A stretch of 32,061 bases of DNA. Source: an uncultured Bacilli bacterium (GTDB taxonomy: Bacteria > Bacillota_I > Bacilli_A > RF39 > UBA660). The notes under the pieces are model-generated. The model was not told where the DNA came from and searched no databases. It was given only the letters and a program-made list of their open reading frames with translations. The DNA lies in assembly GCA_947626035.1 (NCBI GenBank), contig CANQQR010000010.1, positions 1-32,061 of the forward strand, written 5' to 3'. Numbering within the stretch: the first letter of the stretch is position 1; each line of letters opens with the position of its first letter. A program made the translations under genes and the position numbers. Shown here piece by piece: positions 7,222 through 31,285 of the stretch.

Positions 7222-8124
7222 ACCCAATTTAAGATTATCTAACATTGTATAATTTTGTTTAGCAAATCCTTGATATGCGTTTTGAATCATAGACATATCA
7301 GTTCCCATCTTATTTGCATTATCTGCCATATCAGTAATTGCTAAATCTGCGGCTTCTGCAGCAGCTGCAGTATCGCCGTTTAGTGAGGAAATTAAACTAG
7401 CACTAAATGAGGTCACAGTTTCCATATATTGATTAGCACCCAAGCCAACAGTTTTATAAGCATTGTTTGCATATTCCTGAACTTTAGAAGAACTATCTTT
7501 AAATAAAGTATCAACACCACCAACTAATTGCTCATAATCAGCGAAACCAGTAACAGCTCCTTTGGTAACATCAATTAATGCCGTTCCTAAATCCTTAGCA
7601 AGACTAATCATACTTTTAAAACCTGCTGATATGGCTTCACTAATCAAATTTCCTTTAATTAAATCGCCTAATTTTATCGCTCCATTTCCAGCATCATTTT
7701 CCGCCTTTTCAAATTCTTTTAATTCATTAGTTGTTTCAACATGAGCACTTTTTAAAGCATTCATAGTCTTTTCATTATCACTTATTTCTTTAGTTGTCTT
7801 ATTAACTTCTGCTTGCGCCTTATTTAACTCATTTTGCCATTTATTAACAGTAGTCGCATTAGAATCAGTACTTTCCTTTGCTTCATTTAACATTTTTCTC
7901 GCTTCTTCTAATGCTTTATTCTGGGATTTTAATTTTTCAGATAAAATTTCATTTTTTGCACTTAAAGTCGTAACACTATCATTATTAACATCATAACTAG
8001 AAGTTAATGCTTTCATAGAACTAGATAATACAGTTAAATTTTGAGTAATGCTACTAAGCGCTTTTTTATAATCATCCTCGCCTGATAATTTTATTGCTCC
8101 ACCAAATGTTCCCGCCATTTTCAT
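7222..8124 (-). CDS. Tape measure protein, exon 1
   Basis: Typical start 'MAGTFGGAIKLSGEDDYKKALSSITQNL'; ends at LDNLKLG where the intron begins (in-frame intron stop at 7219-7221). Confidence 0.9.
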
Positions 8125-8367: not shown

Positions 8368-8711
8368 ATATCATCAGATTTCGTACTATTTATAACTACA
8401 TTGTTCATAACATTTGTTGCTTTTTTAAGTCCTAATGAAGTTATAATTCTTCCAACTTGTTTTTCGTTATAAAAAGGTTGTTGTTCTTCTTTAGGTAAAC
8501 TTTCATTTTTAATATCAATTGCTTCATTTAACATAGCAGTATAACCAAATATTAAAGCTTCAATATCAACTTCCTTTCCTTGACTTCCTGTTAATTCTCC
8601 CCATTTTTGAATTGTTCCATATTGTTTTTGAATTTCCTTTATTACATTCAAACTAACAACAAGTTCATAAGTTTTATCATTTACATCAAATTTAAAACTA
8701 TAATCATTCAT
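8355..8711 (-). CDS. Tail assembly chaperone (gpG-like)
   Basis: 118 aa between major tail protein and tape measure; carries the frameshift site at its 3' end. Confidence 0.8.
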   Translation of the reverse strand: MNDYSFKFDVNDKTYELVVSLNVIKEIQKQYGTIQKWGELTGSQGKEVDIEALIFGYTAMLNEAIDIKNESLPKEEQQPFYNEKQVGRIITSLGLKKATNVMNNVVINSTKSDDIKNE

Positions 8712-8732
8712 TTTTTACCATTCCTTTCATAT

Positions 8733-8769
8733 AAAAAAAGGGAATAAGTCCTAATATAGGTCCTATTCC
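8733..8769 (-). terminator. Intrinsic terminator after the major tail gene
   Basis: Minus GGAATAGGACCTA-TAT-TAGGACTTATTCC followed by C then TTTTTTT. Confidence 0.75.
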
Positions 8770-8832
8770 TTTCTTCTAGTAGATTTTTTCACTCTTTCTT
8801 CAAAAGTCATATAATCTTTATTACTTTACAAA

Positions 8833-9762
8833 TTATTCAGTTTTTAATTCTAATTCAGTTAATGTCAATACTCTAGTATCTTTTCCAACACTGACAACTT
8901 CAATAGTTTGATTTTTATTTGCTATTTGAAAAACAATCAAACCATCTTTAGGATCAACTTCAACCGGTTTTTTCAATTTTGAACCATCGCCTTTTAATTC
9001 ACAAGTAACAGTTGCACCAGATTTACATTCTGGAAAATATAATGCTAAAAAATTACCTTTAGCACCTTTTTCAAAACCATCGAAATTTTGTACATAATTT
9101 ATAGTTCCATTTAAATTATTTAAAATCCCAATTTTTACATTATCTTGAAGTTCATTAACCTTTTTTCCGCCAAGATTAGTATCTGTATCACCCGTTGGAA
9201 CCTCTATATTAATTTTTTTTTTAGGATCAGTAAGTAAATCATCCAAATATTTACTAGCTTCTTCAAAATTAGTAAATGTTTTTGTTTTAGACCAATCACC
9301 ATTTTCCTTTTGCATTACTGTTCCATTTAAAGATGGTGTAACGTATTGTATTGATTCGCCTTTTGTAGTTTCTTCTGGAAGTGTTTCAGCAAATTTTACT
9401 TTTGATAAAAATTCAACTTTATATTTTCTAACACCTCTAACAACTTTAGTTAAAATACGTCCAATTGCTACATAAGGCGCATTATCAGTAGAATTTCTTA
9501 CAACTTCTCCATCATCTGATATATTATGTCCTAAAATATCAGCAAAAACTTTATCATCGTCATCATCTACAGACAGTGCAACAGTACCCTTATTAAAAGA
9601 AGTATCACTTTCTGCTACCGCATCATCAGCGTATAAAACAGCGCTATTGCTTTCAATGGAAACATTACAATTTACTGCTCTACCAAAATTTTCAGGTTGT
9701 GTAACTTCATCATTAGCATCTAATTTTGAATATCTTAAATACTTTAATCCAATTCTTGCCAT
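8833..9762 (-). CDS. Major tail protein (phi13-type)
   Basis: 'MARIGLKYLRYSKLD...' and 'VAIGRILTKVVRGVRKYKVEFLSKVKFAE', typical of this family; position. Confidence 0.85.
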   Translation of the reverse strand: MARIGLKYLRYSKLDANDEVTQPENFGRAVNCNVSIESNSAVLYADDAVAESDTSFNKGTVALSVDDDDDKVFADILGHNISDDGEVVRNSTDNAPYVAIGRILTKVVRGVRKYKVEFLSKVKFAETLPEETTKGESIQYVTPSLNGTVMQKENGDWSKTKTFTNFEEASKYLDDLLTDPKKKINIEVPTGDTDTNLGGKKVNELQDNVKIGILNNLNGTINYVQNFDGFEKGAKGNFLALYFPECKSGATVTCELKGDGSKLKKPVEVDPKDGLIVFQIANKNQTIEVVSVGKDTRVLTLTELELKTE

Positions 9763-14614: not shown

Positions 14615-14675
14615 TTTAAAAATAAAAAAACAAACAAAAAATTAATTATCTTGTCTGTTTAATTCTTTACATTTT

Positions 14676-14714
14676 ACATTATATCAAACATAAAGTGTCA
14701 CAAGTGTCAAAGTT
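14676..14714 (-). promoter_or_regulatory. Candidate late promoter/regulatory element, copy 1
   Basis: Minus AACTTTGACACTTGTGACACTTTATGTTTGATATAATGT, upstream of the portal gene; 37/39 identical to 17507-17545. Confidence 0.6.
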
Positions 14715-17453: not shown

Positions 17454-17506
17454 TCACTCTAAATAAAAAAAGGACAACTTTTAATTAGTAATCCTTTCCA
17501 ACGTAT

Positions 17507-17545
17507 ACATTATATCAAAAATAGAGTGTCACAAGTGTCAAAGTT
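17507..17545 (-). promoter_or_regulatory. Candidate late promoter/regulatory element, copy 2
   Basis: Minus AACTTTGACACTTGTGACACTCTATTTTTGATATAATGT, upstream of the HNH-terminase genes. Confidence 0.6.
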
Positions 17546-24024: not shown

Positions 24025-24578
24025 TCAAATAACTTTTTCGTTTCATTTAGATTAACTGCTAAAGGAATACCTGGATTTTCTTTAGTAAACTTAATATTTA
24101 TTAAAATTTCATGTTCTAAACCTGTTGTTAAAGGAATAAGCTTCAATAGAAAGTTGTAATAAATTGAATCAAATTCGTCTTGCTTCATTAATAAAAATTC
24201 ATTTTCACGTTCTGGACTCATTGAATGATTAAAATATTTTTCGCCTTTAGTTTTCATGTACCTAATGCTGTTATGTCTTTCCATATGTTTTTGCATTGCA
24301 TCATAATAAGCAATTTTTCCACAAAATTCACACTTCATCAAAAATTTCTTATTTTTGATACTTTCCTTTTCGCTAAAGAGAAATAATTTTATATCAGGTG
24401 GATTCTTTTTGTAATTTGTATTTTCTTTATGTTCAGCATATCTTGCTAACACAACATCTTTAGATAACCTCATAAGTGCATTTTTCCAAACTTGATATTC
24501 GTCTTCGTCTTTTATCTCAAAAGAACTATAATCCTTTTTGATTTGACTAATAAATTGCATAACTTCTTCTTTAGTCAT
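24021..24578 (-). CDS. Zinc-finger-containing early protein
   Basis: CEFCGKIAYYDAMQKHMERH C2H2-like motif. Confidence 0.55.
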   Translation of the reverse strand: MTKEEVMQFISQIKKDYSSFEIKDEDEYQVWKNALMRLSKDVVLARYAEHKENTNYKKNPPDIKLFLFSEKESIKNKKFLMKCEFCGKIAYYDAMQKHMERHNSIRYMKTKGEKYFNHSMSPERENEFLLMKQDEFDSIYYNFLLKLIPLTTGLEHEILINIKFTKENPGIPLAVNLNETKKLFE

Positions 24579-25314
24579 TTCTTAAATCCTCCCATCTTCT
24601 TTGACTCAAAAATGTTGTTGGGTAAGGAATAAACTGTCCATTATTCTTTTTCCATTCATCAGAATCCTTAAAGTAGTAAAGCGATAATATTATTTCTTCA
24701 TGTAGTTCTTTTGAGGGTTTATGTCTTAAATACCAATCTCTACTTTTTGCTTTATTTTTTTTCTTAGGGTAGATGCTCCAAAATGCATTAAACATTTGCG
24801 CATATATATTTATATTAACCTTACCTATCCTTACCTGTGTCGACGGCTCGTCGACGGTACTAATATTTGGTACAAAATTGTTAGTATTTTTTTGAGAATT
24901 TTCTTCAATTTTTGGACTTAATTTTAGTACATTTTCACTATCATTTTTATCATTTTTTTCTTCAATAGAATCTACTAAAAAATATTCTTTATTTTCATCT
25001 AATTTCAGTTGTGATTTTTCTTTAGTATACGGGGTTTCGTTATATGTATCTTTTCTAATGTAATTATGAATTTTCCAATGCTTAATAACTACTACACCAC
25101 TTTCAAACGGTATAATAAAATTTCTCATAAATAACAACTTTAAATCATCATTACTAGCGCCTACTATTTTAACTATCTTTTTTGGAGAATTGACAAATCC
25201 ATCATCATCAGCTCTCATAGCTAAATCATAGTATAGTAATCTACTACTAATAGGCATGTCTAAAAAAGCATCGCTATCTATGATTGTTTTCGCAAACATT
25301 CTTCTTTCAGCCAT
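24571..25314 (-). CDS. Phage replisome organizer/replication initiator
   Basis: 'MAERRMFAKTIIDSDAFLDMPISSRLLYYDLAMRADDDGFVNSPKKI' N-terminal signature. Confidence 0.85.
   Translation of the reverse strand: MAERRMFAKTIIDSDAFLDMPISSRLLYYDLAMRADDDGFVNSPKKIVKIVGASNDDLKLLFMRNFIIPFESGVVVIKHWKIHNYIRKDTYNETPYTKEKSQLKLDENKEYFLVDSIEEKNDKNDSENVLKLSPKIEENSQKNTNNFVPNISTVDEPSTQVRIGKVNINIYAQMFNAFWSIYPKKKNKAKSRDWYLRHKPSKELHEEIILSLYYFKDSDEWKKNNGQFIPYPTTFLSQRRWEDLRND
24797..24855. other. Candidate phage replication origin inside the replisome organizer gene
   Basis: Two tandem 10-mers CCTTACCTAT/CCTTACCTGT, GC-rich inverted repeat GTCGACG-GCT-CGTCGAC, adjacent AT-rich CATATATATTTATATTAA. Confidence 0.6.
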
Positions 25315-25721: not shown

Positions 25722-25976
25722 TTAAATAAACTTACATTTTTTATCTTTTTTTAATTTTTCTAATTGTTTATCAGTGTAAAACCACTTACTGACATCGCCA
25801 CCCCTTGACTCAACATTAGCTGCTAATTCATTAATGACATCGTATATATGAATTAATACATTCCTTAACTCATTTTCAGATGGTGTTTCTGCATATACTT
25901 CTATAGTTGTATTTCCATCTTTTACACTCTTAATAAACCTTAAATTAGAATCACTTGACGACTTTTGATTATTCAT
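25722..25976 (-). CDS. Hypothetical early protein
   Basis: Start at MNNQKSSSD preceded by GTGAGGTG; first gene downstream of the hairpin leader. Confidence 0.55.
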   Translation of the reverse strand: MNNQKSSSDSNLRFIKSVKDGNTTIEVYAETPSENELRNVLIHIYDVINELAANVESRGGDVSKWFYTDKQLEKLKKDKKCKFI

Positions 25977-26031
25977 TTCTAAACACCTCACTTAATCTTA
26001 TGTGTTTAATAATTTAAAATTAATTTCCATA

Positions 26032-26135
26032 CCCCTAATTGCTTAAAAGAGTAACCCTTTTTTTCAAAAGATAAAATAAGGAGCTCTAATGAAAAAATTA
26101 TGGGAGATAAGGTTACTCTTCTAAACAATTAGAAG
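26032..26135 (-). ncRNA. Leader hairpin A (structured RNA candidate)
   Basis: Minus TACTTCTAATTGTTTAGAAGAGTAACC pairs with GGTTACTCTTTTAAGCAATTAGGGGTA: 27 consecutive pairs including 4 G-U. Confidence 0.65.
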
Positions 26136-26162
26136 TAGTTTAATTTAATTTTATTAATTTCT

Positions 26163-26310
26163 ATATCTCTAACTGCTTAAGGGGGCAATCTAAAAGAGGT
26201 TTGAATAGTATAAATTTATGAATCAATTTTAATAATAAAAGGTGTTTAGTAATAGTTACATCGTAATATTTTTTTTAATAAGATTACCCCTTTAAACAGC
26301 TAGAAATATA
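26163..26310 (-). ncRNA. Leader hairpin B (structured RNA candidate, homologous to A)
   Basis: Minus ATATTTCTAGCTGTTTAAAGGGGTAATCT pairs with AGATTGCCCCCTTAAGCAGTTAGAGATAT: 28/29 paired including 4 G-U. Confidence 0.65.
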
Positions 26311-26311
26311 A

Positions 26312-26341
26312 TTTACATTTACCTCTCTTTAGATTTATAAT
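26312..26341 (+). promoter_or_regulatory. Promoter for the plus-strand gene at 26364
   Basis: TTTACA, 18 nt, TATAAT. Confidence 0.5.
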
Positions 26342-26363: not shown

Positions 26364-26591
26364 ATGTTTCACTATGTTGTGACTAAAGGTAAAGTATTAA
26401 TTCCTACTGAAGATTTTTCTTTAGTAAAGAAGACTACAACTATTGCTGACCCTACATCTGCTAAAGTTCATTTAGAGTACCCAAATGGTATAATAATGGA
26501 CTGCATTCTTTCTGTTAATGGTGCTGACATCACTATTAACAGGGAATTGATACTGAACCCTGATGGAAACTATGAATTAAAGGAAGATTAA
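26364..26591 (+). CDS. Small hypothetical protein
   Basis: 75 aa, AGAAGGTG ribosome-binding site. Confidence 0.6.
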   Translation: MFHYVVTKGKVLIPTEDFSLVKKTTTIADPTSAKVHLEYPNGIIMDCILSVNGADITINRELILNPDGNYELKED

Positions 26592-26674
26592 TCTTCTTTT
26601 TTTTCAATACTTATTCCAGTTTTATTAATAACAAATTGTTTATCACCAATGTTAATTACTATTTCTTTTTCCAT
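26588..26674 (-). CDS. Mini-protein (28 aa), cassette family
   Basis: MEKEIVINIGDKQFVINKTGISIEKKED* after the shared AGGAGGGAAT leader. Confidence 0.45.
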   Translation of the reverse strand: MEKEIVINIGDKQFVINKTGISIEKKED

Positions 26675-26759
26675 ATTCCCTCCTAACTTTTTTCTTTTTT
26701 ATAATTTGATTTTCTTTAACCCCTATTCTATAATTAGTTTTAGAAAGGAGTGTGAATCA

Positions 26760-26987
26760 ATGCAAATAATTGGTTATCCTACTAATACTGATAATCAAAA
26801 GAAATTTAGTGAAAGACATATAGAAATTCGTAATGAAGTTGTCGATAAAGTTAAAGATGTAATCGACAAAGCTAATGTTTCTCCAGAAGTAAAACAATTA
26901 GTATTTGATGTTTTTGCAGAATTAATAGTTGCAGTACAAGAAGATGTATCAGCTGTCTTTCGCTATGCATCAAGTGATGAAAAATAA
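26760..26987 (+). CDS. Small hypothetical protein
   Basis: 75 aa from ATG 26760 with AAAGGAG; the 26649 start lacks an RBS. Confidence 0.55.
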   Translation: MQIIGYPTNTDNQKKFSERHIEIRNEVVDKVKDVIDKANVSPEVKQLVFDVFAELIVAVQEDVSAVFRYASSDEK

Positions 26988-28551: not shown

Positions 28552-28905
28552 ATGTTAGATACCAAAACTTATAAATTTTTAGATTATTTAGTAAATAAAA
28601 CTACCATTACACATAAAGAGTATTTTGAATATCATAGAAAACATAAAACTAATAATTACGAGACTATTCAAATGTATGTATATTTACTTAACAATAATTA
28701 CATTATGTTAAGAGATGATAAAATACATTACACTTATCAAACTAATGTGATTGTAAAATATTACAAAGAAAATAAATTAAACAACATATTTATAAATCAC
28801 ATCTTACCTTACATACACGAATTTTTTATATTTTTAATAGGATTGCTAACACCATACCTATTACAAATAATAAAGTATATTTTAAAAATCTCACATTTGA
28901 TTTAA
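28552..28905 (+). CDS. Hypothetical protein with C-terminal membrane segment
   Basis: 117 aa, GGAAAGGAG upstream. Confidence 0.55.
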   Translation: MLDTKTYKFLDYLVNKTTITHKEYFEYHRKHKTNNYETIQMYVYLLNNNYIMLRDDKIHYTYQTNVIVKYYKENKLNNIFINHILPYIHEFFIFLIGLLTPYLLQIIKYILKISHLI

Positions 28906-29010: not shown

Positions 29011-29268
29011 CTAACTATCATTTTCTTTTGGTATTTTTTCTTCAAAGTTGCGAATATATTCACATACGTTTTTAAAAAAAATTTCATTATCTACATTATA
29101 TTTTTCCAGTATCTCAAATAATCTTCCAAGTTTAATAACTTCTGGATTATTTTCATATAAACATAATGTATTCTTATGAATCCCAGTAATTTCAGATGCT
29201 TTTTCCAAAGTCCAATTATTACGTGAACGTATGCTTTTGAGTTCTCTTCCTATTTGCTCAATACACAT
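29011..29268 (-). CDS. Cro-like HTH regulator
   Basis: 'IGRELKSIRSRNNWTLEKASEITGIHKNTLCLYENN' HTH_XRE; divergent from repressor. Confidence 0.8.
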   Translation of the reverse strand: MCIEQIGRELKSIRSRNNWTLEKASEITGIHKNTLCLYENNPEVIKLGRLFEILEKYNVDNEIFFKNVCEYIRNFEEKIPKENDS

Positions 29269-29290: not shown

Positions 29291-29319
29291 ATTATACGTG
29301 AATATATTCCCGTTGTCAA
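29291..29319 (-). promoter_or_regulatory. Early lytic promoter (PR-like)
   Basis: TTGACA, 17 nt, TATAAT on minus strand. Confidence 0.85.
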
Positions 29320-29397: not shown

Positions 29398-30054
29398 ATG
29401 GAAAATAATTTTAAAACAAATTTAAAAATTATTAGAGAACAAAAAAATCTATCGCAACAAGATGTAGCTGATAAAATAGGTGTTGATCGTTCAACTATTG
29501 GCTATTGGGAAAATGGAAAAGCAGACCCAACAATGGTTAATGTAATAAAATTAGCAGAAGCGTTAGATGTAGACTTAGTCACTCTAATCGGAGGTGAATT
29601 AAATTTTGACAATGCAGAGATTATACCCATTACAAATGATACAGTGCAAATACCTGTACTAGGTACTATTAAAGCAGGTATTCCAATTGAAGCACAAGAA
29701 GATATATTAGAATATATAGAAATACCTAAACAATGGACCAAAGGCGGAAGAAGCTTTTATGGTCTTAAAATAAGTGGCGATAGTATGTTCCCTAAATATA
29801 GTGAAAAAGATATTGTTATATTTGAACAGACAAATGACTACTCTATTGCTAATAATAAAGACTGCGCTATTATGGTAAATGGATTTGATGCTACTTTTAA
29901 AAATGTCACTATAAATGAAAATGGTATTATGTTGATACCACTTAATCCTAATAATCAGGACAACTACTTACCTACTTTTTATAATAAAGAGCAAATAGAA
30001 AACTTACCTGTTAAAATCATTGGTATTGCAAGAGAAAAGAGGACAAGACTGTAA
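29398..30054 (+). CDS. CI-like repressor (HTH_XRE + S24/LexA peptidase)
   Basis: 'LKIIREQKNLSQQDVADKIGVDRSTIGYWENGK' and 'SFYGLKISGDSMFPKYSEKDIVIFEQ'. Confidence 0.92.
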   Translation: MENNFKTNLKIIREQKNLSQQDVADKIGVDRSTIGYWENGKADPTMVNVIKLAEALDVDLVTLIGGELNFDNAEIIPITNDTVQIPVLGTIKAGIPIEAQEDILEYIEIPKQWTKGGRSFYGLKISGDSMFPKYSEKDIVIFEQTNDYSIANNKDCAIMVNGFDATFKNVTINENGIMLIPLNPNNQDNYLPTFYNKEQIENLPVKIIGIAREKRTRL

Positions 30055-30325: not shown

Positions 30326-31285
30326 ATGAAAGAATTTAAAACAATAAATGAACAAATAGATATTCTCAAAAATAGAGGTCTAATTTTTAATGACGAAAAT
30401 AAAGCAAAAGATTTATTAATTTCTAATAACTATTATAATATAATAAATGGCTATAAAGATTTATTTATTACACTTGGAACAAAAGACAACTTTTTAAATG
30501 GTACAACTTTTGAAGAAATTTATTCTTTATATGATTTTGATAAAAAAATAAAAGATATTTTATTAGAATATATATTAAAAATAGAAAACAATTTGCGCTC
30601 TTACATCGCTTATTATTTTTCTAAATTTCATGGCAATGACAATTATTTAAAACTTGATAGTTTTGATAATTTTAATAATTTATCTAATGTTTCTATAGAT
30701 ACTAAACAAAAAAGAATAAAAAATATCCAAGATTTAATAGCAAATATACATAAAGAAATTGGAAAAACTATCAATGCTAAAAACTATATTAACCATTATC
30801 TAGTAAATTACGGATTTGTACCCATGTGGGTTCTAGTTAATATATTATCTTTTGGAACTTTATCTAAATTTTTAGAACTTATGAAGCAAAATGAAAGAAT
30901 ATATATATCTCAACATTACAATATATCAGAAAATGAATTAATACAGCATACAAAAATGCTTGCTTATTTTAGAAACCTCTGTGCACATGATGACAGAATA
31001 TATAACACTAAACTTCCAAAATATTTATATATACCAGATAATAAATACCACACTTTATTAAATATACCTAAACACAATAATATGTATTTATATGGTAAAA
31101 ACGATTTATTTTCACTAATAATTACGCTCAAAGTAATGTTATTACCAGAAGAATTTAATACTTTGTATAACAAAATAAATGGTCGAATAATAAGCTTAAG
31201 TAAAAAAATGTACGTTATTTCAATTGATGATGTATTAAATAAAATGAATTTCCCAAAAAATTGGCAAGAAATAAAAAAGTTCTAG
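30326..31285 (+). CDS. Abi_2 (AbiD/AbiF-type) HEPN abortive infection protein
   Basis: 'LISNNYYNIINGYKDLF...RNLCAHDDRIYN' (RxxxxH HEPN motif), 'YGFVPMWVLVNILSFGTLSKF'. Confidence 0.9.
   Translation: MKEFKTINEQIDILKNRGLIFNDENKAKDLLISNNYYNIINGYKDLFITLGTKDNFLNGTTFEEIYSLYDFDKKIKDILLEYILKIENNLRSYIAYYFSKFHGNDNYLKLDSFDNFNNLSNVSIDTKQKRIKNIQDLIANIHKEIGKTINAKNYINHYLVNYGFVPMWVLVNILSFGTLSKFLELMKQNERIYISQHYNISENELIQHTKMLAYFRNLCAHDDRIYNTKLPKYLYIPDNKYHTLLNIPKHNNMYLYGKNDLFSLIITLKVMLLPEEFNTLYNKINGRIISLSKKMYVISIDDVLNKMNFPKNWQEIKKF

Follow-up and report, generated by a model that had tools for sequence, protein, structure and literature searches.

Two long, homologous hairpins, A and B, stand in tandem (about 280 nt together) in a prophage of an uncultured Bacilli bacterium. 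They lie on the strand of the lytic genes, before a gene start, and their stems are kept by compensatory changes. Leaders of three prophages contain hairpins of this kind, as probably do late leaders of related phages, and the identity of A and B as sense-strand leader RNA is well supported. New here are a homologue (C), a hairpin of the same shape (E) and a probably related set (F), with no Rfam match. The hairpins probably control the cutting, protection or reading of the phage message. The covariation rests on few sequences, and the regulatory mechanism of A and B, tentatively that of an RNase III-type processing or 5'-protection element, is inferred throughout.

Two tandem hairpins ahead of the replication genes

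The window analysed here is a 32,061-nt stretch of contig CANQQR010000010.1, from a host assembly of 1.43 Mb in 77 contigs. It is a prophage, with a repressor gene at 29398 on the plus strand and a cro-like gene at 29268, the replication module and the structural genes on the minus strand. A and B are placed between a reversed plus-strand gene (26364) and a minus-strand operon with its likely start codon at 25976 (Table 1). The preliminary description put them before the replication operon, which is right, with two small genes intervening before the DnaD-like helicase loader. Relatives of the first are present in five further genomes from the host family, where such hairpins are absent. The reversed 75-aa gene matched no family.

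Table 1. Positions of the hairpins and neighbouring features (window coordinates, except hairpin E)
Feature	Position	Strand	Details
Hairpin A	26030..26137	-	arms 26137-26109 / 26058-26030; 29 gap-free pairs including G-U; 50-nt loop; 108 nt
Hairpin B	26161..26311	-	arms 26311-26281 / 26191-26161; about 30 pairs, one A-C mismatch; 89-nt loop; 151 nt
3' flank of A	26018..26029	-	common to A and B (GAAATTAAT)
3' flank of B	26150..26160	-	common to A and B (GAAATTAAT)
First gene past the hairpins	25722..25976	-	ORF 25991-25722; likely ATG 25976, ribosome site AAGTGAGG, 54 nt past A
Second small gene before helicase loader	25711-25481	-	
DnaD-like helicase loader, replication module	24571..25314	-	phrog_5708, E 3e-63
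Promoter of reversed gene, abutting B	26312..26341	+	TTTACA-18-TATAAT, 11/12, consensus match only
Reversed (antisense) 75-aa gene amid early-operon genes	26364..26591	+	
Early promoter between repressor and cro-like genes	29291..29319	-	TTGACA-17-TATAAT, 12/12, consensus match only
First late promoter	17470..17541	-	GACAC repeats, TATAATGTA; promoter-proximal intrinsic terminator; site of F in related phages, F absent here
Second late promoter, before portal gene	14630..14710	-	promoter-proximal terminator
Hairpin E	L211 2009-2151 (G018)		27-pair stem, 89-nt loop; 31 nt before start codon; behind reversed gene

The position and strand originally given for the two hairpins proved correct. They are the top two gap-free stems when both strands of the window are compared. 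The segment 26010-26330 folds at -87.9 kcal/mol (z -8.0) on the minus strand, against -66.0 kcal/mol (z -3.9) on the plus strand. The stems of A and B are homologous, and their 28 aligned pairs contain five double changes, five single changes neutral for pairing and one break; the earlier count agrees with this except for the neutral singles, of which it had four. The loops of A and B are unrelated, as had been claimed, with a similarity not above that of shuffles. The shared flank was likewise confirmed on the minus-strand 3' side (TATRGAAATTAAT), the duplication being on that side only. An intrinsic terminator was rejected as the identity of A and B, given their loops of 50-89 nt and no U-tract past the 3' arms.

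The eight wobbles of the preliminary description, all G-U on the minus strand, become five in A and four in B, plus one A-C in B. In a tally of distinct sites, where shared ones count once (two wobbles are common to A and B), A and B alone give seven G-U on the minus strand versus one A-C (P 0.035), A to E alone give 13 to 2 (P 0.004), and all loci give 22 G-U on the coding strand versus 4 A-C (P 0.0003). The argument from wobble bias to selection on the minus strand is thus modest for A and B and strong only with the homologues. Moreover, the coding strand gives the better fold for each of A to E and the higher score for the F stems. The claim of a cis-acting minus-strand RNA is supported by both homologues and covariation.

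That this RNA belongs to an early leader needs a qualification. It is a leader on the lytic strand, but the consensus early promoter lies about 3 kb upstream of the hairpins. No convincing minus-strand promoter was found directly before B; a nearer weak promoter is possible. The consensus scan misses the late promoter at 17.5 kb.

Two further features of these prophages were observed. The reversed small early-operon genes at 28552-28905 (+) of the window and 8621-9010 (+) of locus L112 have a winged-helix and membrane-helix look and are weakly similar to each other; they could be lysogenic-conversion genes. The window also encodes an Abi_2 (AbiD/AbiF-like) protein at 30326-31285 (+) (Pfam PF07751, E 6e-45), near which neither an abiF RNA nor any other Rfam match was found.

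Related hairpins in other phages

A covariance model built from A and B, as had been proposed, was used to search 295 host-family genomes. It found one clear match outside the own genome, in a prophage of the same genus (G006; 48 bits, E 1e-5). The next matches were weak and lacked the stem; of all matches, only those in G000 and G006 are credible. The new homologue, C, is located in L112 of G006, also deposited as CANSWR010000022.1 ("uncultured Firmicutes bacterium"), and its 28 pairs enclose an 88-nt loop. Right behind the reversed gene at 8621-9010, it ends 46 nt upstream of the gene of a DnaD-like helicase loader (phrog_2514). Just upstream of C, in tandem, lies a second long hairpin, D, for which arm alignment detected no homology to A, B or C. 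Among A, B and C, 7 pairs are changed on both sides and 98.8% of the cells are paired, values of which neither is reached in any of 500 shuffles; this covariation is strong, though below R-scape grade, coming from three sequences of which two are tandem duplicates. Conservation is seen in mid-stem, and 16 of the 28 pairs are invariant in all three. Inside the helicase-loader gene of L112, 22-bp iteron-like repeats were observed at 7920-7984 (TGTGCACTTGTTGTGCATTCAT, 2.8 copies); this array is a likely origin.

Hairpin E, of the same shape, was present in one (G018) of 17 replication regions from other prophages of the host family. It has no sequence homology to the other hairpins and no stem sequence in common with them. 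In all three prophages the hairpins are preceded by a reversed gene inside the early operon, and the distance from hairpin end to start codon is 54 nt for A, 46 nt for C and 31 nt for E. No hairpin accompanies the second reversed gene of the window (28552-28905) or a reversed gene in L093. Since only A, B, C and E combine a stem score of at least 25.5 with a loop of at least 12 nt in 1.44 Mb (some loci overlapping, and counted before the phages found through the terminase), this architecture is rare, and it recurs in one setting. Long palindromic repeats flank a cro-like gene in L093 (453-732) and L094 (1778-2048) (TTTTCACTTTAAGTGAAA; GTGAATATATTCGCATAT); these are likely repressor operators.

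Searching with the window's terminase led to phages 73-78% identical in that protein. In several of them (L226, L229, L230, L233 and L234), the late HNH-terS-terL unit has a leader with hairpins, F, whose arms are 28-42 nt and whose loops are 34-59 nt long. The motif UGUUUA/UAAGCA, with the same U-G pair, is found in A, B, C and most F stems (UAUUUA in L233). Pair-shuffle z values against the F of L230 are 3.2 for A, 3.0 for B and 4.1 for C, some other combinations being weaker, and F is probably homologous to these three. Double changes of its own are present in F, as is a second helix, from the loop to the 3' flank. No reversed gene precedes the F hairpins, which are sited behind, not before, the first late terminator. 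F is an accessory element, because it is missing from the corresponding place in L227, L242, L232 and the window. The motif CUCC occurs in 5 of 8 loops (P 5e-5), a pattern spotted post hoc that we do not count as evidence.

In the window and in L226-L242, each late unit (HNH-terS-terL; portal onward) has a direct-repeat promoter with TATAATGTA and an intrinsic terminator immediately after it. The direct repeats are TTCACA/TTCACA in L226-L242 and GACAC/GACAC in the window. From this layout, the late units look as if they were under activator and antitermination control. L227 and L242 have the same promoter-terminator units without any such hairpin. Just upstream of the late promoter, L232 (4644-4795) and L241 (8704-8855) have a 25-pair inverted repeat with a 102-nt loop; it was set aside, having a sequence different from F and being almost perfect on both strands, and may be a mobile or regulatory repeat.

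Other searches gave no further members. Rfam returned nothing above the gathering threshold in the window, for EAR or others, and matches below it were mostly generic long-hairpin microRNA models. When A/B, C/D and E were searched as nucleotides against phage and plasmid collections, only AT-rich chance matches came up, and no A/B-like hairpin was seen at 80 viral-contig loci surrounding DnaD-like relatives. A two-arm pattern scan of the viral contigs gave 17 matches, apparently chance matches in coding sequence, none of them an A/B-like hairpin; the viral-contig scans used exact patterns, which miss distant homologues. In genome contigs the pattern scan found G006 again and one chance match. 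An initially similar stem in L034 (3480-3595) was rejected, since it is better on the non-coding than on the coding strand and also overlaps a ribosome site. Mimicry of CRISPR repeats was also discarded, the host genome having no similar repeats.

Possible functions of the hairpins

We tentatively favour A and B being an RNase III-type processing or 5'-protection element. The form of the stems, the free loops and the place before gene starts fit such a hairpin. An RNase III site needs at least some two helical turns of almost unbroken duplex on the transcribed strand, and the stems found here, with 27-32 pairs, are that long. Long, near-perfect duplexes like these would be recognised as double-stranded RNA. 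Host RNase III could cut the early transcript in the stems, or the stems could simply cap it; the downstream replication message would then begin with a strong hairpin, shielded from 5'-end-dependent decay. Under processing or capping the loops would be free to change, matching the unrelated loops observed. The long early transcript would also run antisense through the reversed gene at 26364-26987, and in the three prophages the sense early RNA would pair with the mRNA of the reversed gene, giving a likely duplex open to RNase III attack. RNase III prefers uninterrupted duplexes and digests overlapping sense and antisense RNA in Firmicutes (PMC3997798; a further precedent in PMC3531473). Against the processing reading stand the hairpin-free reversed genes (28552-28905 and that in L093) and the F hairpins, with no reversed gene in front. 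The conserved mid-stem UGUUUA/UAAGCA, which suggests sequence-specific recognition rather than that of plain double-stranded RNA, also counts against it. It is possible, if doubtful, that a new kind of phage RNA element is at hand, a long hairpin that is sequence-specific, with the conserved UGUUUA/UAAGCA core and fixed U-G, and sited in early leaders in some phages and in late leaders in others of the same lineage; it would mark lytic transcripts for a single dedicated factor, be it polymerase, a ribonuclease or a phage protein.

The same core and the U-G pair fixed in A, B, C and F would also suit recognition by an RNA-binding protein of the phage or host, or a pseudoknot, either of them controlling translation of the next gene. 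F has its second conserved helix, and the A loop (26059-26108) shows complementarity to the following gene's ribosome site and start codon (25970-26008, minus strand; -21.5 kcal/mol, z -3.8, the best of seven sites), which singles out A as the hairpin for a translation effect. However, such pairing is not general over the seven hairpins (Stouffer z -0.8), and the E stem is unlike all others in sequence, so we regard translation control as rather unlikely. Processive antitermination as by put, where the nascent hairpins would bind RNA polymerase so that it passes the terminators behind the late promoters, is still conceivable because both late promoters (17541 and 14710), downstream on the same strand, have an intrinsic terminator right behind them. 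Two tandem hairpins within the lytic transcript and a conserved core that fits a specific partner speak for it too. Yet A and B are far larger than put RNAs, which have about 70 nt and follow PL directly or PR at about 270 nt (PMC9378689), and their loops are long and variable. The early promoter is 3 kb away, L227 and L242 have the same promoter-terminator units and no such hairpin, and F comes after the first late terminator instead of ahead of it; antitermination is accordingly an unlikely reading.

A role at the DNA level, as an origin, a single-strand primosome site or operator repeats, seems improbable. A, B and C do adjoin replication genes, and G-T is better tolerated than A-C in single-stranded DNA as well. 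Nevertheless, the arms of each hairpin co-vary instead of following one consensus across copies, E and F are away from replication genes, no DnaA-box cluster was found, and the array inside the loader gene of L112 occupies a usual place for a phage origin. RNA is a simpler reading than minus-strand single-stranded DNA because of the leader positions and because the iteron-like repeats of L112 lie elsewhere. As for the arms being terminal repeats of a MITE or insertion sequence, which the preliminary description named as its own refutation, inverted arms do enclose unrelated inner sequence, and presence is accessory among related phages. But A and B are a single locus in their own genome, with no dispersed copies in several hundred relatives, the wobbles are strand-biased and the flank is duplicated on one side only. 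This highly improbable reading is already largely refuted.

These hairpins would be a new structured-RNA family in phages of an uncultured, small-genome Bacilli lineage, whose lytic leaders carry exchangeable long hairpins beside late promoters each with its own terminator. Terminator passage and message protection in such phages would become testable with a few reporter constructs.

Comparison with known systems

The likeness to HK022 put sites first suggested for A and B holds for the presence of two hairpins only. Like putL and putR, they are paired hairpins in lytic-strand RNA. However, put has two short stem-loops in about 70 nt, whereas A (108 nt) and B (151 nt) have stems of 29-30 pairs and a different structure, including their loops; and put is no more than about 270 nt away from the early promoter, whereas A and B (26311-26030) are about 3 kb from the best one (29319-29291). 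The put RNA needs no protein factor to suppress termination downstream of it. The EAR and conAn antitermination RNAs of Firmicutes are also leader RNAs of long operons in Gram-positive bacteria or their elements, but the window has no Rfam match. The hairpins that stabilise bacterial mRNAs resemble A and B as strong structures ahead of a ribosome site; theirs sit right at the transcript's 5' end or close to it. Coliphage T7 early mRNA has RNase III processing sites, and RNase III cleavage sites are also known from the early mRNA of Bacillus phage SP82 (Panganiban and Whiteley 1983, as cited in PMC12502629). In general layout, A and B differ from the SP82 and T7 sites in being tandem homologous copies with a conserved core and unrelated 50-89-nt loops, and share with them the long duplex hairpins between or before early genes.
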